DNA from: Blastocatellia bacterium
GTDB taxonomy: Bacteria > Acidobacteriota > Blastocatellia > Pyrinomonadales > Pyrinomonadaceae
Length of the DNA: 60,275 bases
Reading direction: 5' to 3'
NCBI GenBank assembly: GCA_013697915.1
Contig: JACCVY010000005.1
Coordinates: forward strand, 1 to 60,275
The notes below the pieces were generated by a model, which saw only the letters and a program-made list of their open reading frames with translations, did no database searches and was not told where the DNA came from. This document shows, in pieces, positions 6,858 to 45,404 of the stretch; positions within the stretch are counted from its first letter, which is position 1, and each line of letters starts with the position of its first letter. A program made the translations under genes and the position numbers.

Positions 6858-6956
6858 GACGGAGACAGTAGGCAGTAGGCAGAAAGCGGGGGGCAGAAGG
6901 CAGTAGGCACAGCAGAGCGCAACGACAAAGCACAAAGCACGAAGTACAAAGCACAG
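6858..6956. repeat. Low-complexity heptamer repeats
   Basis: Between pyrD and pyrR lie two runs of degenerate tandem units: four GGCAGTA/GGCAGAA-like units at about 6866-6906, then four AAAGCAC/GAAGTAC-like units at about 6925-6953. They contain no conserved start or coding signal and account for the false N-terminal extension of pyrD. Confidence 0.6.
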
Positions 6957-7631: not shown

Positions 7632-7644
7632 GTATCTTTTTGAA

Positions 7645-7675
7645 TCGTCAGTTGTCCGTTGTCAGTAGTCCGTGG
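7645..7675. repeat. TCAGTTGTCCGT-type intergenic repeat, left copy
   Basis: The stretch reading CAGTTGTCCGTTGTCAGTAG is an inverted relative of 9193-9228, which carries CAACTGACAACGGACCA and CAACTGACAACCGACCA. The two copies flank the IS30-containing four-helix-bundle gene between pyrR and pyrB. Confidence 0.5.
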
Positions 7676-7720
7676 TTTCTAGTTTTGCCATCCTTAGGTA
7701 ATTCGGATAGATGCTTTCTG

Positions 7721-7743
7721 AGGAGGCAAAAAATGGAAAGGGT
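7721..7743 (+). pseudogene. Displaced 5' end of the four-helix-bundle gene
   Basis: A perfect AGGAGG (7721-7726) stands six bases before ATG at 7733, followed by GAA AGG and GT. The next base belongs to the IS30 element. Joining base 7743 to base 8811 gives an uninterrupted frame MERVRRTNFEKLRVYRL leading into the four-helix-bundle gene at 8811-9174. This is therefore the original ribosome-binding site and start of that gene, cut off by the insertion. Confidence 0.7.
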
Positions 7744-8810
7744 GGATTCAACTTGAAGTGCAACTTTGAAAACTAGTGGTTGAAGGGCAAGCTGGGATAG
7801 CGTAAGCGTGCTTTATCAACGACCAAGTCAAAGAAGCACACAAATGAGCTACACACAGCTTACCCGGGGACAAAGATACCAGATAAACATCTTGATGAAA
7901 GCCGGACATAACCAAACTGAGATCGCCTTGTTGGTTGGTTGCCACAAAAGCACGATCTCACGTGAACTGCGCCGCAACCGCGGCCTGAAGGGCTATCGTC
8001 ACCATCAGGCAGATGAACTAGCCTACGACCGGCAGTGCGAAGCCTATCGTTCGCGTATCGCCTGGCAGACTTGGCAACAGGTCGAGCGGCTCTTGCGCCA
8101 GGATTGGAGTCCGGAGCAAATCGCCGGGCGACTGAAGCTGGAGAAACAACCCAGCGTCAGTCATGAATGGATCTATCTTTACGTCTATGCGGACAAGCGG
8201 CGCGGTGGCGCGCTGCATCGGCATTTACGCAGCCAAAAGAAGCAGCGCAAGCGTTATAGCGGGTATATCCGCCGGGGCCAGATACCCAATCGCACCAGCA
8301 TTGATAAGCGTCCCCAGATCGTAGCTAGCAAAGGCCGGTTCGGCGACTGGGAGGCCGATACTATCGTCGGTGCCCGCCATCAAGGTGGCATTCTCAGCGT
8401 CGTTGAGCGCAAATCGAAGCTGACCCGACTGCGCAAGCTGGCCACCAAAGCAGCAGCAGAAATGCGGCAGACAAGTGTAAAACTATTAGGGCCACTCGCC
8501 GCTCGGGTCCATACCATCACGGTAGACAACGGCAAAGAGTTTTGTGAACACGAACAGATCGCCGCGCAGCTGCAAACGCGCATCTACTTCGCCCATCCTT
8601 ATGCCAGCTGGGAACGAGGCTTAAACGAAAACACCAACGCCCTCGTGCGGCAGTACTTTCCCAAGAAATATGAATTCGCCAGGATCACAAACCAAAACTT
8701 GCAACAGGTGGAAGACCTGCTCAATAACCGCCCTCGCAAGACGCTTGGTTATCGGACCCCTAACGAAGTATTTTTCAAACAACGATCTGTTGCACTTCCA
8801 AGTTGAATCC
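7744..8810 (+). mobile_element. IS30-family insertion sequence
   Basis: A 1067-base element bounded by imperfect terminal inverted repeats. The left end is GGATTCAACTTGAAGTGCAAC (7744-7764) and the right end is GTTGCACTTCCAAGTTGAATCC (8789-8810). They are complementary except for one extra base. It carries one transposase gene, whose stop codon lies inside the right repeat. Size and organisation fit IS30. No clear target duplication is seen (GGT on the left, GCG on the right). It interrupts the first codons of a four-helix-bundle gene between pyrR and pyrB. Confidence 0.88.
7844..8806 (+). CDS. IS30-family transposase
   Basis: DDE transposase of about 320 residues. An N-terminal helix-turn-helix is visible in QTEIALLVGCHKSTISREL. 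The catalytic acids are in DWEADTIVGA (first Asp), TVDNGKEF (second Asp) and WERGLNENTNALVRQ (Glu). The C-terminal sequence KTLGYRTPNEVF is characteristic of the family. The chosen ATG at 7844 follows a purine-rich stretch and gives the expected start MSYTQLTRGQRYQI; an upstream in-frame start at 7808 is less likely. The frame is intact, so the element may still be active. Confidence 0.93.
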   Translation: MSYTQLTRGQRYQINILMKAGHNQTEIALLVGCHKSTISRELRRNRGLKGYRHHQADELAYDRQCEAYRSRIAWQTWQQVERLLRQDWSPEQIAGRLKLEKQPSVSHEWIYLYVYADKRRGGALHRHLRSQKKQRKRYSGYIRRGQIPNRTSIDKRPQIVASKGRFGDWEADTIVGARHQGGILSVVERKSKLTRLRKLATKAAAEMRQTSVKLLGPLAARVHTITVDNGKEFCEHEQIAAQLQTRIYFAHPYASWERGLNENTNALVRQYFPKKYEFARITNQNLQQVEDLLNNRPRKTLGYRTPNEVFFKQRSVALPS

Positions 8811-9174
8811 GCGAAGGACAAACTTCGAGAAGCTCCGCGTTTATCGATTGTCAGAAGAATTGGCGGACGAGTTGTGGAAGGTGGTAATGCATTGGGATTA
8901 CTTTGCACGGGATACCGTCGGCAAACAACTGGTACGAGCAGGTGATAGTATTGGTGCAAACATAGCTGAGGGAGCGGGGCGAGGAAGATTCCTGGACAAC
9001 CGGAGGTTTGTACGCATCGCCCGAGGTTCGCTAAACGAAGTTAAGCACCGGTTGCGACGGGCTCATAACCGAAGCCTCTTAACCCCGTCGCAGACTGGTA
9101 CACTCAAGCCCATAATTGAAGAGTTAGCTCCGACGCTCAATGCTTACCTTAACTCGATCGGAGTGAAGAATTAA
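8803..9174 (+). CDS. Four-helix-bundle (S23-like) protein, 5' end replaced by IS30
   Basis: Small alpha-helical protein whose body, NFEKLRVYRLSEELADELW then GDSIGANIAEGAGRG, matches the four-helix-bundle family first found as proteins encoded in 23S rRNA intervening sequences. Function is unknown; members are often associated with other genes as stand-alone ORFs. The current in-frame start is a TTG at 8803 inside the IS30 right inverted repeat, with no good Shine-Dalgarno, so expression may be low. The original ATG with AGGAGG lies at 7733 on the far side of the insertion. The remainder of the frame is undamaged, consistent with a recent insertion. pyrB begins 54 bases after its stop. Confidence 0.75.
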   Translation: MNPRRTNFEKLRVYRLSEELADELWKVVMHWDYFARDTVGKQLVRAGDSIGANIAEGAGRGRFLDNRRFVRIARGSLNEVKHRLRRAHNRSLLTPSQTGTLKPIIEELAPTLNAYLNSIGVKN

Positions 9175-9192
9175 GGAATGGAGAGGTTGCGC

Positions 9193-9228
9193 AACTGACA
9201 ACGGACCACTGGCAACTGACAACCGACC
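9193..9228. repeat. CAACTGACAACGGACC-type intergenic repeat, right copy
   Basis: Two tandem degenerate units, CAACTGACAACGGACCA and CAACTGACAACCGACCA, directly precede the pyrB ATG. They are inverted with respect to the copy at 7645-7675. They leave no room for a Shine-Dalgarno before pyrB. Confidence 0.5.
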
Positions 9229-10185: not shown

Positions 10186-10191
10186 GTAAAT

Positions 10192-10330
10192 CAAACTGTT
10201 AGTTTGAGGTCGTGCGCCACGACCAACTTGCATGCGAAGCTGAGGTCGCACGCAAACAAACAGGTTTTGCTACGTAGGAATTCGCAAAACTAAGAATTTG
10301 CTTTACGCACGACCGCAAACTAACAGTTTG
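10192..10330. repeat. Long inverted repeat between pyrB and pyrC
   Basis: Arms of 25 bases at 10192-10216 and 10306-10330 are complementary at 24 positions (CAAACTGTTAGTTTG followed by a variable base and GGTCGTGCG). The 89-base loop contains a small GTCGTG-CGC-CACGAC hairpin at the left arm and further AAAC-rich motifs. The element fills the pyrB-pyrC spacer. It could fold in the transcript and affect pyrC expression, or be a dispersed palindromic repeat. Confidence 0.8.
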
Positions 10331-10344
10331 CTTTACGGAAAAAA

Positions 10345-11676
10345 ATGAAGGTCTTAATCGCAAACGGCTATGTGATCGATCCGGCGCAGGGGATTAATGC
10401 CGGCCGAAATTTGCTGATTGAAGATGGCCACGTTATTGGCCTGCTGGAACGAGGCGAACAACATCCTGAGGGCGCGGAGGTTCTCGATGCAACCGGTCTA
10501 ATCGTAGCTCCTGGTTTCATCGACATGCACACTCACCTGCGCGAGCCCGGCGCGGAGTACAAAGAAACTATTGCCACAGGTGTTGCTGCTGCAGTGGCCG
10601 GTGGTTGGACCAGCGTTTGCTCGATGCCAAATACCGATCCGGTAAACGACAGCGCTGCGGTAACCAGATTTGTTATCGAGCAGGCGCAACACGCGCAACT
10701 TGCAAACGTCTTTCCGGTTGGCGCGCTCACCAAAGGTTCGCAGGGAAAAGAGCTGGCCGAGATGGGCGAGATGAGAAGCGCTGGCATCGTCGCGGTTTCA
10801 GACGACGGCCGGCCGGTAGCGAGTGCCGGCATGATGCGCCGGGCGATGGAGTATGCGCGCGGTTTTGATCTGCCGGTGATCGATCATTGTCAGGATCCAA
10901 CACTGACCGCAGGTGGCGTTATGCACGAAGGGCACTGGTCGTTGCTGCTTGGACTAAAGGGCATGCCGGCGGCGGCCGAAGACGTTCACGTTATTCGCGA
11001 TTGCGTGCTGTCCCAATTGACAGACGCTGCGGTTCACATTGCCCACGTTTCGACACGCGCGTCGCTCGAGGCGGTCCGCCGCGCAAAAGATGCAGGTTTA
11101 CACGTGACTTGCGAAGTTGCACCGCATCACTGGTCGCTGATGGATGAAGCGGTCGCCGAATTTGATACGAATATGAAGATGAGCCCGCCGCTGCGCAGTC
11201 GTAACCATGTTGAGGCGTTGCGGGCAGGGTTGCAGGACGGAACGATCGACGCAATAGCGACCGATCATGCGCCGCATCACGCCGACGAGAAGGCGCTGGA
11301 GTTTGATGAAGCGCCGTTTGGAATCACTGGATTGGAAACAGCCATTGGGCTGGCATTCGATCTGGTGCAGCAAGGCGTCATAGATCTGGAGCGGCTGGTC
11401 ACATTGTGCTCGACAAACCCGGCGCGAATTTTTGGACTACAGGATCGCGGCAAACTGACGGCAGGCGCGCACGCGGATATCACGATTCTCGATCCCACCT
11501 GCGAATGGATCTTTGACGTGAGCGCGTCAAAATCCAAGAGTCGTAACACTCCATTTAATGGGCGCAAAATGGCCGGCGCCGCGGTTGCAACCATCGTCGG
11601 TGGCCGCGTGGTCTACCTCAATCCGAATTACACTCGGATCACTGAGACGAAGCAGCGCCCCGCGTCGGCCAAGTAG
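10345..11676 (+). CDS. pyrC: Dihydroorotase
   Basis: Class I zinc amidohydrolase of 443 residues that cyclises carbamoyl aspartate to dihydroorotate. The metal-binding motif [10 protein letters not shown] begins at residue 60, the DHCQD and AHVSTR segments contribute further His ligands, and the catalytic Asp is in ATDHAPHH. The C-terminal [14 protein letters not shown] is typical. It lies 160 bases after pyrB with a long inverted repeat between them. Confidence 0.96.
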
Positions 11677-11703
11677 CGCCTTTGAATTAAGACCAGATGA
11701 ATA

Positions 11704-12033
11704 GATTTTCCATTCATCATTTTTCATTTCTCATTTTTCATTTCGGAGTTCAATCCGGAAGTACGGATGAAGTTTGGAATGAAGTCAGTGCCACCACGCA
11801 GTAGCGGGTGGGTTGATACGCTAGCACCCAAGCCTTCGCGTTGGTATTGAGCTCAATGCCACCCAGCTTGAATAATGACGTGGGTCGCGATCTTGACGCC
11901 GCCGTATCGACCCACCCGCTACCGCGTGGTGGTACTGACCTCATCGGGACCGCTTCATGAGTGACTTTCCCGGCTTGAGATAGCAAACAACGAAAATGAA
12001 AAATGGGAAGTGGCAAATGAGAAATGGAAAATC
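11704..12033. repeat. Nested inverted-repeat element
   Basis: Outer arms of degenerate CATTTTTC/GAAAAATG units occupy about 11704-11745 and 11992-12033. Inside are 36-base arms at 11784-11819 and 11904-11939, complementary at 33 of 36 positions around the core AGCGGGTGGGT. A related single arm recurs at 15902-15933. There is no coding content. It separates the convergent pyrC and glycine-zipper genes and looks like a dispersed palindromic repeat or MITE-like element. Confidence 0.75.
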
Positions 12034-12085
12034 TGTTTTTCGCTTTCTACTCACCTAGCTTGATCGTCAATAACAGCGAAAACAG

Positions 12086-12125
12086 AAAACCCGCCGCGCT
12101 CTCCCCTTCGCGACGGGTTTTCGTT
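12086..12125. terminator. Bidirectional terminator hairpin
   Basis: AAAACCCG (12086-12093) pairs with CGGGTTTT (12114-12121), followed by CGTTTT. On the other strand the stem is followed by a T-rich tract. Its position between the convergent pyrC and glycine-zipper genes suits a shared terminator. Confidence 0.65.
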
Positions 12126-12170
12126 TTGGCCGTCTACTTACGTTATTACCGGGACGACCGATTTGTTGGA

Positions 12171-12204
12171 AGCCCGCCCGCGCTCTCCCCTTCGCTGGCG
12201 GGCT
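12171..12204. terminator. Second hairpin with the same loop sequence
   Basis: AGCCCGCC (12171-12178) pairs with GGCGGGCT (12197-12204). The loop shares GCGCTCTCCCCTTCGC with the hairpin at 12086-12121. There is no strong T-run on either side, so it is a structural repeat and a weaker terminator candidate. Confidence 0.4.
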
Positions 12205-12273
12205 CCTTCAACATCGACGACCACAAGGGCCGCCGATTCTGTAACGCAAACTTTTTGTTTGCGACTTGAAAAA

Positions 12274-13011
12274 CTAACGCACGTTCGCAGCCGGTAGCGA
12301 CAGGGTCTGGTTCAGCACTACGCCAAACTCAGTTCCGGACTTAACCACTGCTTCATTTCCTTTTGAGAAGACAGCGCCCGCCGTACCCAAACCACCGCCG
12401 ACGATGGCGCCAATGCCCGCGCCCTTACCGCCGCCGGCAATCGCGCCAATAAGAGCGCCGGCCGCCGCGCCACCACCGATGAACACAACGTTGCGCTTCA
12501 TCGCCGAACGTCCCGACACCTCACCTTCGTTGTCCGCCGTAACGTTATTTGCCGTGACATCCGTCAGGTCACCGTTGATTGCACGCGCAATTCCGGTCGG
12601 CAGCCGCAGGGAAACAAAATGAACGCCGATCGTTCCTGCTCTGCTCTTGCGCGATGCGCGGGTAACAGTCACTACTCGACCGATGATCTCGCTGCCCGCG
12701 GGAATCACTTCAATGCCCCCGGCGTAAACTGGAACCACCGTCGTCGTCGTGAACTGATCGCCAACTCGCGCAGTCTCGGAAGTTATTGTTTGGTTCATGC
12801 GCACGCGTATCACCTGACCAGTATTGACGTTGTAATAAGCTATCTGCGGAGCCGGCGCAGTGGTGCGCACAACAGTGCGCGTGTGGCGGCGCAAGCGCGG
12901 CCGCCGTTTGGTTTGGGCCATAGCCGGCACAACGGTCGACGCAATCAGCGCCACCAAAATTAAAAGGCTGGTGAAATTCCTGGAAACTCGATTAGTCAAA
13001 TTCGCTTTCAT
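12274..13011 (-). CDS. Exported glycine-zipper protein
   Basis: Predicted 245-residue exported protein. The chosen ATG gives a clear signal peptide (Lys/Arg n-region, hydrophobic stretch LLILVALIAS, cleavage near AMAQ). A basic Arg-rich segment follows. A beta-rich domain with VIRVRMNQTITSETARVGD, at about residues 65-165, resembles a small outer-surface or lipoprotein-like fold. A glycine-zipper stretch (AAAGALIGAIAGGGKGAGIG) then probably inserts in a membrane. A longer in-frame start at 13161 lacks signal-peptide character. Specific function unknown. It lies alone, convergent with pyrC. Confidence 0.7.
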   Translation of the reverse strand: MKANLTNRVSRNFTSLLILVALIASTVVPAMAQTKRRPRLRRHTRTVVRTTAPAPQIAYYNVNTGQVIRVRMNQTITSETARVGDQFTTTTVVPVYAGGIEVIPAGSEIIGRVVTVTRASRKSRAGTIGVHFVSLRLPTGIARAINGDLTDVTANNVTADNEGEVSGRSAMKRNVVFIGGGAAAGALIGAIAGGGKGAGIGAIVGGGLGTAGAVFSKGNEAVVKSGTEFGVVLNQTLSLPAANVR

Positions 13012-13362
13012 TATGAATCCTTCCACTAGTTCGCATCCGTCAGTACCAAGCTTCAGCGCGCCGTCTAGATCCATTGTCGGAGTGTTACGACGCGCTGCGG
13101 AGTTACTTGAGCAATGACCGTGCCATCTGGTCTCTGCCGACGATGGACGCTCGAACCCCAACTATTTGTAGGTTTAGATAAGGCGCTTTGTTCCAGGCGA
13201 AAACTGATTGAGAATAGATAGACGATGTGCGATGCGCGCGCGCCGTTGTGCACTATTTGGAATAGATTAAAAGTAATGCGAACCGCTTACATGTTGAGCG
13301 CATCCGGGGGTTGCGGACGAAGGCCTGTCGCCGCATAAACTGAGGAAAGGGAAGGTACTCTA
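13012..13362. other. Divergent intergenic region
   Basis: This 351-base gap separates the divergent glycine-zipper and alpha/beta hydrolase genes. No coding signal, repeat or clear promoter pair was seen beyond a GGAAGGT ribosome-binding site for the hydrolase near 13350. Confidence 0.4.
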
Positions 13363-15805: not shown

Positions 15806-15901
15806 GTTTTAGGGTTCCTCCTGAGTGATGTTTTCTGATGGGGGGATGATAGCTCTCATGGTCGATAGTGCGCCATCAAACTCAACGTGCCAACTGATGG
15901 G

Positions 15902-15933
15902 GTCAGTGCTAACCCGTGGTAGCGGGTGGGTCG
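15902..15933. repeat. Solo copy of the AGCGGGTGGGT repeat
   Basis: GTCAGTGCTAACCCGTGGTAGCGGGTGGGTCG matches the 36-base inner arm of the element at 11784-11819 over most of its length, but no complementary arm is nearby. Confidence 0.6.
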
Positions 15934-18088: not shown

Positions 18089-18134
18089 AAAAGATAGGCG
18101 TGATGAGCAACAAGTAAAGCATGCAGCCGAGCAG
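18089..18134 (+). repeat. 46-nt direct repeat, left copy
   Basis: This segment is identical at 45 of 46 positions, and in the same orientation, to 41036-41081 inside the TDT transporter gene (only 18097 G versus 41044 A differs). Read on the minus strand it encodes LLGCMLYLLLIT, as in the transporter, but here it stands in an intergenic region. The two copies bracket the whole sugar-catabolism island. Confidence 0.9.
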
Positions 18135-23439: not shown

Positions 23440-25284
23440 ATGAAACTGTCGTTTATTGATCAACTGATTGTAGTCGCCTATCTGGCCGCAATCATGGGCA
23501 TCGGCTTAGCCATGAAGCGACGTGCCGCAAAAGGCATGAGTTCTTACTTCCTGGGTGGTCGGCGATTGCCCTGGTGGGCGCTCGCGATGTCTGGTTCGTC
23601 GTCCTACTTCGACATCACCGGCACGATGTGGATCGTGTCGACCTTTATCGTGCTGGGCCTGAAGGGCATGTGGGTGCATTGGCTGTGGGGCTTTCCGATC
23701 ACTGCGTTTTATTTGGCCTTCATGGGAAAGTGGATTCGGCGTAGCGGAGTGCTGACCGGGGCTGAGTGGATGTACACCCGTTTCGGTCGCGCACGGGCTG
23801 GCGACACAGCGCGACTCTCCTACACTCTCTTCGCAATTCTGACGATCACGGCTCTGCTGGGCTACGGTGCTGTCGGCATGGGTAAGTTCGGCGCAATCTT
23901 CCTGCCATTCTCACCCTTCATCTGCGCAGTCTTAATTCTCGGCGTGACTGGTCTGTATGTCGTTGCTGGAGGATTTCACGGCATTGTGCGTGTTGAGATC
24001 GTTCAGACCATCATTCTGAGTGCGGGGGCAATCGCGTTCGCCATTATTGGGTACAGACACTTCGACTCCGCGGTGTTCGCCTCGAAGGTGTCAGGCAACT
24101 GGATGCACATCTTACCGCAGGTACGACCGACTGAGCTGCAAGGCGTCGTCGCCGGCGGTACTGATTACTCGTTTTTTGGCGCGCTTGTCGCAGTGTGGGT
24201 CGCTAAAGGATTACTACTTTGTTTCAGCGGACCGGAGCAGTTGTACGACTTTCAGCGTTTTCTCGCAGCACGTGACGCGCGGGACGCCTCCAAGCTGGGC
24301 GCGTTGTGGGGAGCGATTCATACAGTGCGCTGGCCGTTTGCGATGGCGATCGCCGTAATGGCGATCATGGGTCTTGGCAACCCCGCCCTCGACGCCGCTC
24401 TCAAGCACGATCCAGAGACGGCGCTGCCCGTGATTATCGGCGCGATGCTTCCGGTGGGTCTGGTCGGGTTCATGCTGGCGGCGCTATTGTCTGGATTTCT
24501 GGCGACGTTCAGTTCGACAGTTAATGGCGGCGCGGCGTACCTCGTCAAAGACGTTTACCAGCGCTACATCAATCCGCAGGCAAGTCCCAAAACGTTGATC
24601 CGGGCCAGCTACCTCGCTTCCTCTTTACTCATTATCACAGGCATCATCATTTCCTACTTCGGAACCTCAATCAATACCGCGTTCCTTTGGATTTTCGGTA
24701 CGCTGGCCGCGGGGATTTTGCCACCGAACGTCTTGCGTTGGTACTGGTGGCGACTCAATGGTTGGGGATACGCGGCGGGTGTGTTTAGTGGGATGGCTCT
24801 GTCACTGGGCCAGGCCGTCGCCGACACATCGCTGTTTAGCTCGCCGCTCCCGTTATATATCGGCTTTCCCGTTATCGCTCTCGCCTCGACGATCATCACG
24901 ATAGTGGTCGCTCTGTTTACGGAACCGACTGACATGATAACGCTGGAAAAGTTTTACGAGAACGTGCAGCCTGCTGGCGCCTGGTCACCTGTGCGGGCGC
25001 GTAATAGAAGGTTTACGCGGGAAACGCCCTTTTCACTGGAGGCACTTAATACTCTGTTTGCGCTTATCGGCATCTGCACACTTTACATCGGTACGCTCTA
25101 CTTAATTCTCCACCGGGGAACAACCGCGTTCGCTTGTTTTGCGACAACCGTGATCATGTGCATCCTGCTGTACTTCACCTGGTACAAACACCTGCCGCCA
25201 CCCGCGCCGGAAGCACCAGACGACGAAACTGCCACGACAGAAAAGACCATAGCCACTTCGACAATACCGAGTGCAGCTGACTGA
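23440..25284 (+). CDS. Sodium:solute symporter (SSS family)
   Basis: Inner-membrane transporter of about 614 residues with some 13-14 hydrophobic helices. The N-terminal helix with FIDQLIVVAYLAAIMGIG, the GRRLPWWALAMSGSSSYFD segment and the central GPEQLYDFQRFLAAR are typical of sugar/Na+ symporters of the SGLT-like group. The chosen ATG gives MKLSFIDQL; a TTG at 23410 is less likely. It stands at the head of an SSS-SDR-SBP-TonB-GH38 gene string with short gaps (22 bases to the SDR), so it is the probable inner-membrane step of island uptake. Confidence 0.9.
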   Translation: MKLSFIDQLIVVAYLAAIMGIGLAMKRRAAKGMSSYFLGGRRLPWWALAMSGSSSYFDITGTMWIVSTFIVLGLKGMWVHWLWGFPITAFYLAFMGKWIRRSGVLTGAEWMYTRFGRARAGDTARLSYTLFAILTITALLGYGAVGMGKFGAIFLPFSPFICAVLILGVTGLYVVAGGFHGIVRVEIVQTIILSAGAIAFAIIGYRHFDSAVFASKVSGNWMHILPQVRPTELQGVVAGGTDYSFFGALVAVWVAKGLLLCFSGPEQLYDFQRFLAARDARDASKLGALWGAIHTVRWPFAMAIAVMAIMGLGNPALDAALKHDPETALPVIIGAMLPVGLVGFMLAALLSGFLATFSSTVNGGAAYLVKDVYQRYINPQASPKTLIRASYLASSLLIITGIIISYFGTSINTAFLWIFGTLAAGILPPNVLRWYWWRLNGWGYAAGVFSGMALSLGQAVADTSLFSSPLPLYIGFPVIALASTIITIVVALFTEPTDMITLEKFYENVQPAGAWSPVRARNRRFTRETPFSLEALNTLFALIGICTLYIGTLYLILHRGTTAFACFATTVIMCILLYFTWYKHLPPPAPEAPDDETATTEKTIATSTIPSAAD

Positions 25285-36872: not shown

Positions 36873-36876
36873 AAGC

Positions 36877-36975
36877 TTGGGGTCTTTGGTCTTGGGACAT
36901 CGGCCTTTGTTGCTTCTGGGCTCAAACATTCAAATCCAAAGACCTGGGACCCAAGACCAAAATACCCAAGACCCA
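36877..36975. repeat. GGTCTTTGGTCTTGGG inverted low-complexity repeat
   Basis: The left arm GGGGTCTTTGGTCTTGGGA (about 36879-36897) is complementary to degenerate CCAAAGACC, CCCAAGACC and CCCAAGACCC units at about 36936-36975. The element ends five bases before the next start codon. A related element lies at 45315-45404. Confidence 0.65.
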
Positions 36976-40565: not shown

Positions 40566-41624
40566 TCAAGGGTTACGAACTATCGAGGCGGCACTTGTTC
40601 TCCGTCCCATTAGATTGTGAATTAGCCCGACAAAAGCGGCGAGCCACGCCGCGAGTGCAACGAAAACGAAGTAGCGTGGGATGAACAGCAACGGCTCAAA
40701 GCTGATCGCCTTCGACAGTTGAAAAGTACAGACCGTGTACATCCCGAGCGGGAATACCATGCCCCAGTACTGTGGCTCATAGCGGAGAGGAAAACGCTTG
40801 TAGATGTGGCGCCAGAATCCGAGTATGAACAGCAACGGAATCCACCAGGTGCCCGCCGCCCAGAAGAACAAAGTGAATCCTTTGAGAAATGATGAAATCT
40901 CTCCGAGAAAGCTCCACTCGGGGGCGGCGATAATGAGCCGTGCTCCGGCTAGAGTGGTGATGGCGACTGCGCCCATGTTGATCCAATAAGGCGGAGTAAG
41001 CGTTACGGTCGTCAGTTTGACGAACGTGAAGCGGTAAAAGATAAGCGTGATGAGCAACAAGTAAAGCATGCAGCCGAGCAGAAACATGCAGAGCGTGAAG
41101 AACAGCAACGACTCACGGTGGGCGGTAAAGTAATCTGCCAGCAGCGTTCCTAAGACAGAAATTGATTGTGTTGCTACTGTCGCCAGCAACCACGTACCGC
41201 TGATTCCGGTTTCCAATGGAGGTTTATCCTCCCGCACCGTCACCGCGGTGAAGAAGGTGTACATGATTAGTATCCAGAGCAAGAATCCGATGAACCAAAG
41301 AACAGCCGCTGCTCTGTACTGTCCGGCGACGATCACTAACTGACTGCCGAGCACGCAGGTTCCGGCGACGACCGTGAAAAAACCGGGACCGCGAGCATGG
41401 TCCATGATGTCTGCTTTAACGCGCGGGAAGAAACGTACCAGACGAATCAGCAGCAATAACCAAAGAATAAGGTAGGCGATCAGATTTATTGCCAGCAGCA
41501 ACCACGCCGCTGGTTTCATCTTCAGTTGAAACGCGGCGATGGATATGATTCCCGTCGCCATCACCAGGGCGAAGTATCCTGGAAACAAGTTGGCCGCTGC
41601 CGCGCTAACCTTGCCGTTCTTCAT
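40566..41624 (-). CDS. TDT-family transporter (TehA/Mae1/Ssu1-like)
   Basis: Inner-membrane protein of 352 residues with about ten hydrophobic helices. The N-terminal segment NLFPGYFALVMATGIISIA and the RGPGFFTVVAGTCVLGSQL loop are typical of the tellurite-resistance/dicarboxylate transporter family, whose members export dicarboxylates, sulfite or small anions. Bases 41036-41081 (part of LLGCMLYLLLIT) are duplicated at 18089-18134 on the other side of the island. The gene is intact. It is the last gene of the long minus-strand run led by the redox operon. Confidence 0.85.
   Translation of the reverse strand: MKNGKVSAAAANLFPGYFALVMATGIISIAAFQLKMKPAAWLLLAINLIAYLILWLLLLIRLVRFFPRVKADIMDHARGPGFFTVVAGTCVLGSQLVIVAGQYRAAAVLWFIGFLLWILIMYTFFTAVTVREDKPPLETGISGTWLLATVATQSISVLGTLLADYFTAHRESLLFFTLCMFLLGCMLYLLLITLIFYRFTFVKLTTVTLTPPYWINMGAVAITTLAGARLIIAAPEWSFLGEISSFLKGFTLFFWAAGTWWIPLLFILGFWRHIYKRFPLRYEPQYWGMVFPLGMYTVCTFQLSKAISFEPLLFIPRYFVFVALAAWLAAFVGLIHNLMGRRTSAASIVRNP
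41036..41081 (+). repeat. 46-nt direct repeat, right copy
   Basis: Same orientation and 45/46 identical to 18089-18134. It lies inside the intact TDT coding sequence, which suggests this copy is the original and the left one was duplicated or left behind during island insertion. Confidence 0.9.
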
Positions 41625-45302: not shown

Positions 45303-45314
45303 AAGAACCTCTGG

Positions 45315-45404
45315 TTTTGGGTCTTTGGTCTTGGGCTTTTGGTCTCTCTTACTCAGGTCGGGACTCAACCATCAAAGTCCAAAGACCAAAGTCCAAAAAA
45401 CAAA
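45315..45404. repeat. GGTCTTTGGTCTTGGG-type inverted repeat, second element
   Basis: Arms TTTTGGGTCTTTGGTCTTGG (45315-45334 and beyond) and CAAAGTCCAAAGACCAAAGTCC (45372-45393) are largely complementary. It is the same repeat family as 36877-36975, and again directly precedes a start codon (on the minus strand). Confidence 0.65.

Follow-up and report, generated by a model that had tools for sequence, protein, structure and literature searches.

What kind of element occupies the space between the convergent genes at 10345-11676 (pyrC-like) and 12274-13161? The question arises in a stretch of 60,275 nucleotides (hereafter the window, meaning the whole stretch of DNA that was analysed), part of a 4.5-Mb draft genome in 271 contigs. 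The original prediction, made from the letters of the sequence, had described degenerate A/T-rich outer arms enclosing a pair of inner arms, with a solo inner arm 4 kb away, and had read the pattern as a composite of two palindromic families or as a MITE-like unit. The features of this locus and of a gene-bearing element in the same window are collected in Table 1. The gene names used here (pyrC-, pyrR- and pyrB-like) were assigned by reading translations.

Table 1. Coordinates of the composite palindrome, of the solo repeat and of the gene-bearing heptad element in the window.
Feature	Coordinates	Strand	Description	Evidence
Left heptad arm, gene-bearing element	7638..7670	+	GTCAGTT units	inverted arm 7638-7666; period 7 at 7647-7670
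Transposase ORF, IS30-type by reading	7808..8806	+		HTH_38 over cut-off, rve below; absent from same site in G014
S23/23S_rRNA_IVP four-helix-bundle gene	8803..9174	+		PF05635, 85.1 bits; TIGR02436
Right heptad arm, gene-bearing element	9192..9227	-	CAACTGA units	inverted arm 9194-9222, 79% complementary; period 7
Whole composite quasi-palindrome	11683..12053	no strand	371 nt	score 536, shuffled maximum 174; fold z -14.3
Outer left arm	11700..11743	+	period-7 array, ATTTTTC-type units	inverted pair; tandem period 7/14
Left linker, heptad arm to REP	11744..11778	+		like C37 copy, z 9.1; like reverse complement of right linker, z 5.1
Inner left arm (REP)	11779..11820	+	core GTAGCGGGTGGGT at 11801-11813	inverted pair
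REPIN spacer	11821..11902	+		like C37 copy, z 11.0
Inner right arm (REP)	11903..11944	-	core at 11910-11922 on - strand	inverted pair
Right linker	11945..11993	+		like C37 copy, z 7.5
Outer right arm	11994..12037	-	period-7 array, GAAAATG-type units	inverted pair; tandem period 7/14
Solo REP	15896..15933	+	core at 15919-15931	repeat match

A repeat search recovered the nested arms that had been described: inner arms of 42 nt, 90% complementary with 82 nt between them, and outer arms of 44 nt, 84% complementary. The solo inner arm was also recovered, at 84% over 38 nt. When 460,275 bases of the genome, window included, were scanned for palindromes, the whole locus emerged as a single self-complementary stretch, the second strongest of the sample (the top score was 564; the shuffled maximum in Table 1 is the best score of the same sample shuffled in 40-base blocks). 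Folded as RNA, its + strand reached -180.6 kcal/mol, a value equalled by none of 100 shuffles. Both arm pairs are therefore present, but they are not separate, as the linkers between them are also complementary, each resembling the complement of the other (0/500 shuffles). The description of the outer arms as degenerate and A/T-rich was incomplete, since they are also period-7 tandem arrays. The idea that G-U pairing between the inner arms pointed to selection on RNA did not hold. The 42-nt arms differ by four mismatches, all transitions, and a G-U pair on one strand is an A-C pair on the other, with two each way and thus two G-U pairs per strand.

Period 7 is the sole over-represented tandem period of the 460-kb sample. 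The scan returned 26 period-7 arrays versus at most one for each of the periods 4-6 and 8-13, with none in shuffles; period-14 arrays, which are multiples of 7, numbered 16. A genome-wide search with a unit repeated in the outer arm gave 44 matches, among which 14 convergent pairs were counted by hand, including that of the window, and heptad arrays of other flavours are also common. With an array cut slightly lower than in the 26-array count, 16 of 33 heptad arrays lay in a palindrome at threshold and 17 in none. The window holds further period-7 arrays at 6866-6955, 36876-36970 and 45310-45404, the last two in convergent pairs. Y1/IS200 genes were considered as owners of the heptad arms and rejected, as inspection by eye of 13 Y1 loci revealed no inverted heptad pair flanking the Y1 gene; several had other inverted repeats. 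Additional palindrome families (e.g., GTAAAGCAAACTGTTAGTTTGCGG, AGAGCGGGGGCAAGCCCGCCTTCC and GTGGCACAGACTTCAGTCTGTG), chiefly inverted pairs, occur at 10186-10336 of the window and at several places in contigs C124, C130, C19 and C209, and a 46-nt direct repeat, 98% identical, is found at 18089-18134 and 41036-41081, 23 kb apart.

The inner arms belong to a different family. Their 13-base core GTAGCGGGTGGGT is present in 53 exact copies genome-wide (27 forward and 26 reverse; reversed control, 0), in repeats that approximate RTGAGGTCAGTACCACCWCGCGGTAGCGGGTGGGT, an imperfect palindrome whose consensus was drawn by eye. Twenty inverted pairs of these REPs (REPINs) were identified among the fetched loci, and some of the remaining copies are singlets, such as the solo arm of the window, or direct pairs. 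The genome has 13 Y1-transposase matches, one of which, a RAYT-like gene at C40:24026-24214, is bracketed by REPs at 23631-23725 and 24373-24407. The original prediction had proposed looking for a RAYT-like protein with matching ends; this gene fits, with a divergent product that scores just above the cut-off of PF01797 (24.2 bits versus 23) and far below that of the NCBIfam RAYT family NF047646 (22.5 bits versus 80). Among 23 congener loci with homologues of this gene, 4 carry the REP core, compared with a background of 1 match in 87 kb of other same-genus loci. The core flanks the homologue on both sides in G006 and G001, and at two G010 fragments it is present on a single side. It is absent, at up to one mismatch, at the homologues of G005, G007 and G008 (67-72% identity).

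The inner half of the composite is thus an ordinary REPIN whose RAYT-like partner is divergent: an inverted REP pair with a spacer, hairpin-forming and multicopy, with a RAYT-like gene elsewhere between inverted REPs of the same family. According to the available text of PMC3116915 and PMC2817692, REPIN/RAYT systems likewise combine inverted REPs and a spacer, form hairpins, occur in many copies and have a Y1 gene between REPs, as we found in the genome under study, G006 and G001. RAYT genes are described there as flanked by two inverted REPs (PMC2817692), singlets are described beside doublets, and the Y1 enzyme is proposed to act on REP hairpins in trans (PMC3116915). Our system differs in that the protein falls under the NCBIfam cut-off and the REPIN is nested in heptad arms. 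In addition, GTAG sits by eye in mid-palindrome of the REP copies and not at an end, whereas in the available text of PMC3733652 the GTAG or CGTC tag of a REP is terminal.

Nine REPs (L011, L015, L019, L020, L022, L023, L025, L037 and L099), all near contig ends, are interrupted at an identical base by one insertion-sequence end, so that the REP palindrome appears to be the target of an insertion sequence. The only hint of an IS110 type is a C-terminal motif, and this assignment was not retained; the 56-amino-acid fragment had no Pfam match over the cut-offs.

As had been anticipated, the locus is a composite of two palindromic families, an inner REP family and a separate family of inverted heptads, and neither arm is single-copy in the genome. 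Moreover, the composite itself has a second copy. The segment C37:35667-35920 matches it at 75% over query positions 19-267, with both linkers and the spacer related to those of the window (each 0/500 shuffles); the heptad arms of this copy are shorter and do not reach the array cut. No similarity was detected between the two copies in the flanks beyond the arms. As the linkers and the spacer are common to both copies and the outside flanks are unrelated, the composite has been duplicated whole at least once. The proposal of a MITE-like unit is borne out in that the element is short and gene-less, has inverted arms and recurs once elsewhere, at a site with unrelated flanks, as a unit bounded by the arms. 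Unlike in a MITE, the arms are tandem heptads. A full-length partner is available for the inner arms, namely the RAYT-like gene at C40, and for the outer arms there are only S23 genes (see below) with similar, non-identical arms; this supposed partner is no known transposase. No target duplication was found, and by eye the orthologous sites are too diverged for the ends to be placed at the level of single bases.

We inspected those orthologous pyrC sites by eye. The element is absent from G006, G010, G014 and G028, with other short palindromes in G006 and G014, and another gene occupies the site in G007. G009 has heptads together with a REPIN, which was ruled out as an ortholog of the REPIN of the window because its linkers and spacer are dissimilar. 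Adjacent to the composite, a hairpin block at 12085-12230 with the motif CGCTCTCCCCTTCGC was found at up to one mismatch in 10 of the 10 orthologous pyrC-downstream loci examined. The loci of G026 and G029, which have this block, and that of G028 are from other genera of the family. This block may be a conserved bidirectional terminator or RNA.

The nesting might be the result of two independent events. A REPIN would have entered the loop of a heptad palindrome already resident at the pyrC site, a coincidental placement helped by a shared preference of both families for intergenic hairpins. The variety of the orthologous sites argues for this view, as G004 keeps only the left heptad arm, followed by another gene, heptads surround a different palindrome in G012, and the heptads of G009 accompany a REPIN of unlike linkers and spacer. 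The survey of the 20 REPINs points in the same direction: heptad arrays on both outer sides at threshold were found in one, namely that of the window, and six have a heptad array inside the spacer, with the nesting reversed. Nevertheless, the C37 copy shares linkers, spacer and heptad-like arms, and its history as a duplicated nested unit is not what independent insertions would give. We consider the two-event account unlikely for the element as it now stands, even though it can be right for the first origin of the composite.

The window also contains a heptad palindrome with genes in its loop, at 7638-9227 between the pyrR- and pyrB-like genes. In the PF05635 search of the genome, the match at 8827-9141 was the only one in the window, and the composite has no S23 gene. 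G014 has similar arms and an S23 gene and lacks the transposase, and the insertion maps to the 5' end of the S23 gene of the window. By eye, the same pyrR-pyrB gap is empty in G003 and nearly empty in G012. It contains another palindrome in G004 and G010, gene-less heptad pairs of other flavours in G006 and G009, and a nested one in G007; G005 provided one half of the site only. Such filled, empty and differently filled states of one gap in congeners are as expected of mobile elements.

Genes of PF05635, which encode the four-helix-bundle protein of 23S rRNA intervening sequences and are hereafter called S23 genes, were noticed between heptad arms. The flanks of such genes were therefore scored for inverted arms (score 75, flank of 220 bp) and for period 7 (period-7 match of 0.5). 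The criteria were chosen after viewing the loci of the genome under study and then kept, and the gene-start rule was widened from 60 to 75 bases for the named-genome, plasmid and pooled tests. In the genome under study and its class, inverted arms within 220 bp were present at 29 of 39 S23 genes and a clear period 7 at 24 of 39, with 3 of 42 loci left out because of short flanks; control ORFs of the same genome gave 7/356 and 0/356, respectively. For S23 loci of named genomes, which are a non-random set, the best 80 of 572 relatives of one S23 clade (one of the 80 was left out), the values were 60/79 and 38/79, versus 23/395 and 0/395 for their shuffled flanks. Copies on cyanobacterial plasmids, for which flanks of 60 bp sufficed, had inverted arms in 7 of 10 cases and period 7 in 5 of 10. 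The same run included 29 loci of eight named genomes, overlapping the named-genome set, with arms at 19 and period 7 at 14.

In the pooled test, inverted arms were found at 120 of 159 S23 genes and clear period 7 at 81 of 159, compared by Fisher's test with 21/283 and 3/283 for neighbouring ORFs of the same loci. This test left out 5 loci without a tblastn match, 5 with flanks shorter than 100 bp, 11 duplicate genes and the ten plasmid copies. Arms of period 8 or 9 accounted for a further 14 of the 159 genes (L079, L179, L245, L284 and L308 are examples). The 39 genes that had no inverted arms at threshold count against our preferred reading, and so do the 17 heptad arrays outside palindromes. 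Record titles of the period-7-positive loci include Flavobacterium and other Bacteroidetes, Fibrobacter, Geobacter, Rhizobium, Planctomycetaceae and Omnitrophota, as well as Gemmatimonadetes, Hydrogenedentota, Kiritimatiellae, Harrisonbacteria and Nomurabacteria. Heptad palindromes are thus tied to S23 genes in many phyla. When one heptad pattern was sought in 118 class genomes, it was present in 60 of 98 with PF05635 versus 1 of 20 without, kinship being ignored in this count, and the reversed control of the pattern also matched in 9 of the 118. G008, which has the heptad pattern but not PF05635, counts against the preferred reading as well. Several of the cyanobacterial plasmid S23 genes lie inside gene clusters; the copies at L366, L368, L373 and L369 are placed between cas6 and cas4 (on two plasmids), between the Cmr2 and Cmr3 genes, and between two ribonucleotide reductase genes.

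A different origin of the arms was considered, in which polymerase slippage and hairpin-templated repair would copy heptads into inverted arms at any hairpin, so that the arms would not be element ends. Slippage has been proposed for 7-nt repeats in the available text of PMC4679880. In agreement with templated correction, the units vary among elements and the two arms of one element agree, with an arm-to-arm unit similarity of 0.767 within an element versus 0.489 to the arms of other elements. However, slippage fails to account for the much higher frequency of arms around S23 genes than around their neighbours in the same loci, or for the filled and empty states of entire loci among relatives. 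It also leaves unexplained that the heptad unit tracks S23 protein similarity (Mantel test on 62 elements, r 0.233, p 0.0005). This correlation was r 0.175 (p 0.01) for Acidobacteriota versus other phyla and was not significant when those other phyla were taken by themselves (r 0.12, p 0.12). For these comparisons, loci were assigned to Acidobacteriota from record titles and membership of the class of the window; for L237 the basis was the identity of its arms with the arms of a locus in the class. Such tracking is expected if the gene and its arms travel together, and shared descent of whole elements contributes to it. We regard slippage as an improbable origin of the arms. The idea that the element serves the pyrC transcript as a conserved terminator or RNA structure, under selection as RNA, is scarcely credible despite the very stable fold and the position between convergent genes, as no terminator-like site was found in 11600-12300 and no Rfam match at the gathering score anywhere in the window, the inner mismatches have no strand bias, and the element is missing from four pyrC sites while the neighbouring CGCTCTCCCCTTCGC block is retained in all ten.

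Our preferred reading, to which we assign a probability of about 0.6, is that the locus is a gene-less, MITE-like heptad palindrome of approximately 370 nt that carries a REPIN in its loop and whose arms are of the kind found around S23 genes. The outer half has inverted period-7 arms and no S23 (PF05635) gene in its loop, and it is at most a gene-less relative of the S23 heptad element, not a full member. The best match of an S23-gene arm to the outer unit of the composite, at L169 in another genome, has a similarity of 0.77-0.80. As to how such a unit might arise, a RAYT-like enzyme would have copied the REPIN as hairpin DNA. The S23 protein would recognise the heptad arms, perhaps by repeated contacts along the stem, and gene-less heptad palindromes would be moved in trans, as is thought for REPINs by RAYT. 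S23 might bind the heptad stem, in RNA or single-stranded DNA form, and then recruit a host enzyme. Our analysis found no catalytic partner for S23, which counts against the preferred reading, as do the lack of an S23 gene in the composite, the merely partial match of its unit to the L169 arm, the low NCBIfam score of the RAYT-like protein, its homologues in G005, G007 and G008 that lack the core, the non-significant correlation outside Acidobacteriota, and the negative result for a target duplication. The S23 family has two solved entries with five chains each (2gsc and 2rld), of which 2gsc is the protein XCC0516 of Xanthomonas campestris ATCC 33913. Its kinship to Avd of diversity-generating retroelements is weak, with 39 bits for NF033474 (cut-off, 80) and 36.9 bits for bAvd (cut-off, 40).

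Among the closest described systems are also the intervening sequences (IVS) of 23S rRNA. According to the available text of PMC4990558, these have an inverted-repeat stem, as does the composite, and their gene-bearing forms contain an S23 gene, as do the gene-bearing relatives of the composite. Unlike an IVS, the composite lies outside rRNA, between protein-coding ORFs, has no S23 gene and has heptad arrays on both sides. Tandem heptamers directly precede the S23 gene that the Coxiella IVS carries within an rRNA hairpin (PMC4990558, available text), an arrangement compatible with a common origin of this IVS and the heptad elements. Heptanucleotide repeats have otherwise been described in their own right. 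In the available text of PMC4692102, such repeats, some in convergent pairs, are reported in Xanthomonas and Nostoc, with 70 convergent pairs of GGGAATC heptads in one Xanthomonas genome, that of X. campestris ATCC 33913, and no general mobile-element association reported. PMC4679880, in its available text, reports them in Beggiatoaceae, Cyanobacteria and Bacteroidetes, including TAACTGA in Beggiatoaceae and others. They resemble our arrays in being intergenic 7-base tandem arrays but are not tied to S23 genes in the available text of either paper. Four-helix-bundle genes are merely mentioned in the available text of PMC8700078 and PMC5524665. In the accessible text of the open-access literature searched, no paper appeared to join heptanucleotide repeats to S23 genes, the Coxiella heptamers aside, and within those bounds the tie appears to be unreported and worth following up.

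More tentatively, at what we would judge slightly under even odds, heptad palindromes may represent a very small class of mobile element across many phyla, consisting of the gene for S23, an Avd relative, in the loop of a heptad-stem hairpin. The intervening sequences of 23S rRNA would be copies that landed in rRNA, and the heptanucleotide repeats of xanthomonads and of cyanobacteria, in which they are named STRR, would be arms. Gene-less copies would be moved in trans by S23, an oligomer of which would recognise the stem by its 7-base register and bring in an enzyme of the host. The flank test joins two separate puzzles across phyla, that of the intergenic heptanucleotide repeats of unrelated bacteria and that of the role of S23/IVP genes and their entry into 23S rRNA. 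Both become testable: inverted heptad arms should accompany an S23 gene, and the flavour of a heptad should point to an S23 partner. Within one genome, heptad palindromes and REPINs nest in both directions, and the tie between heptads and S23 genes suggests that a class of tiny mobile element has escaped notice.
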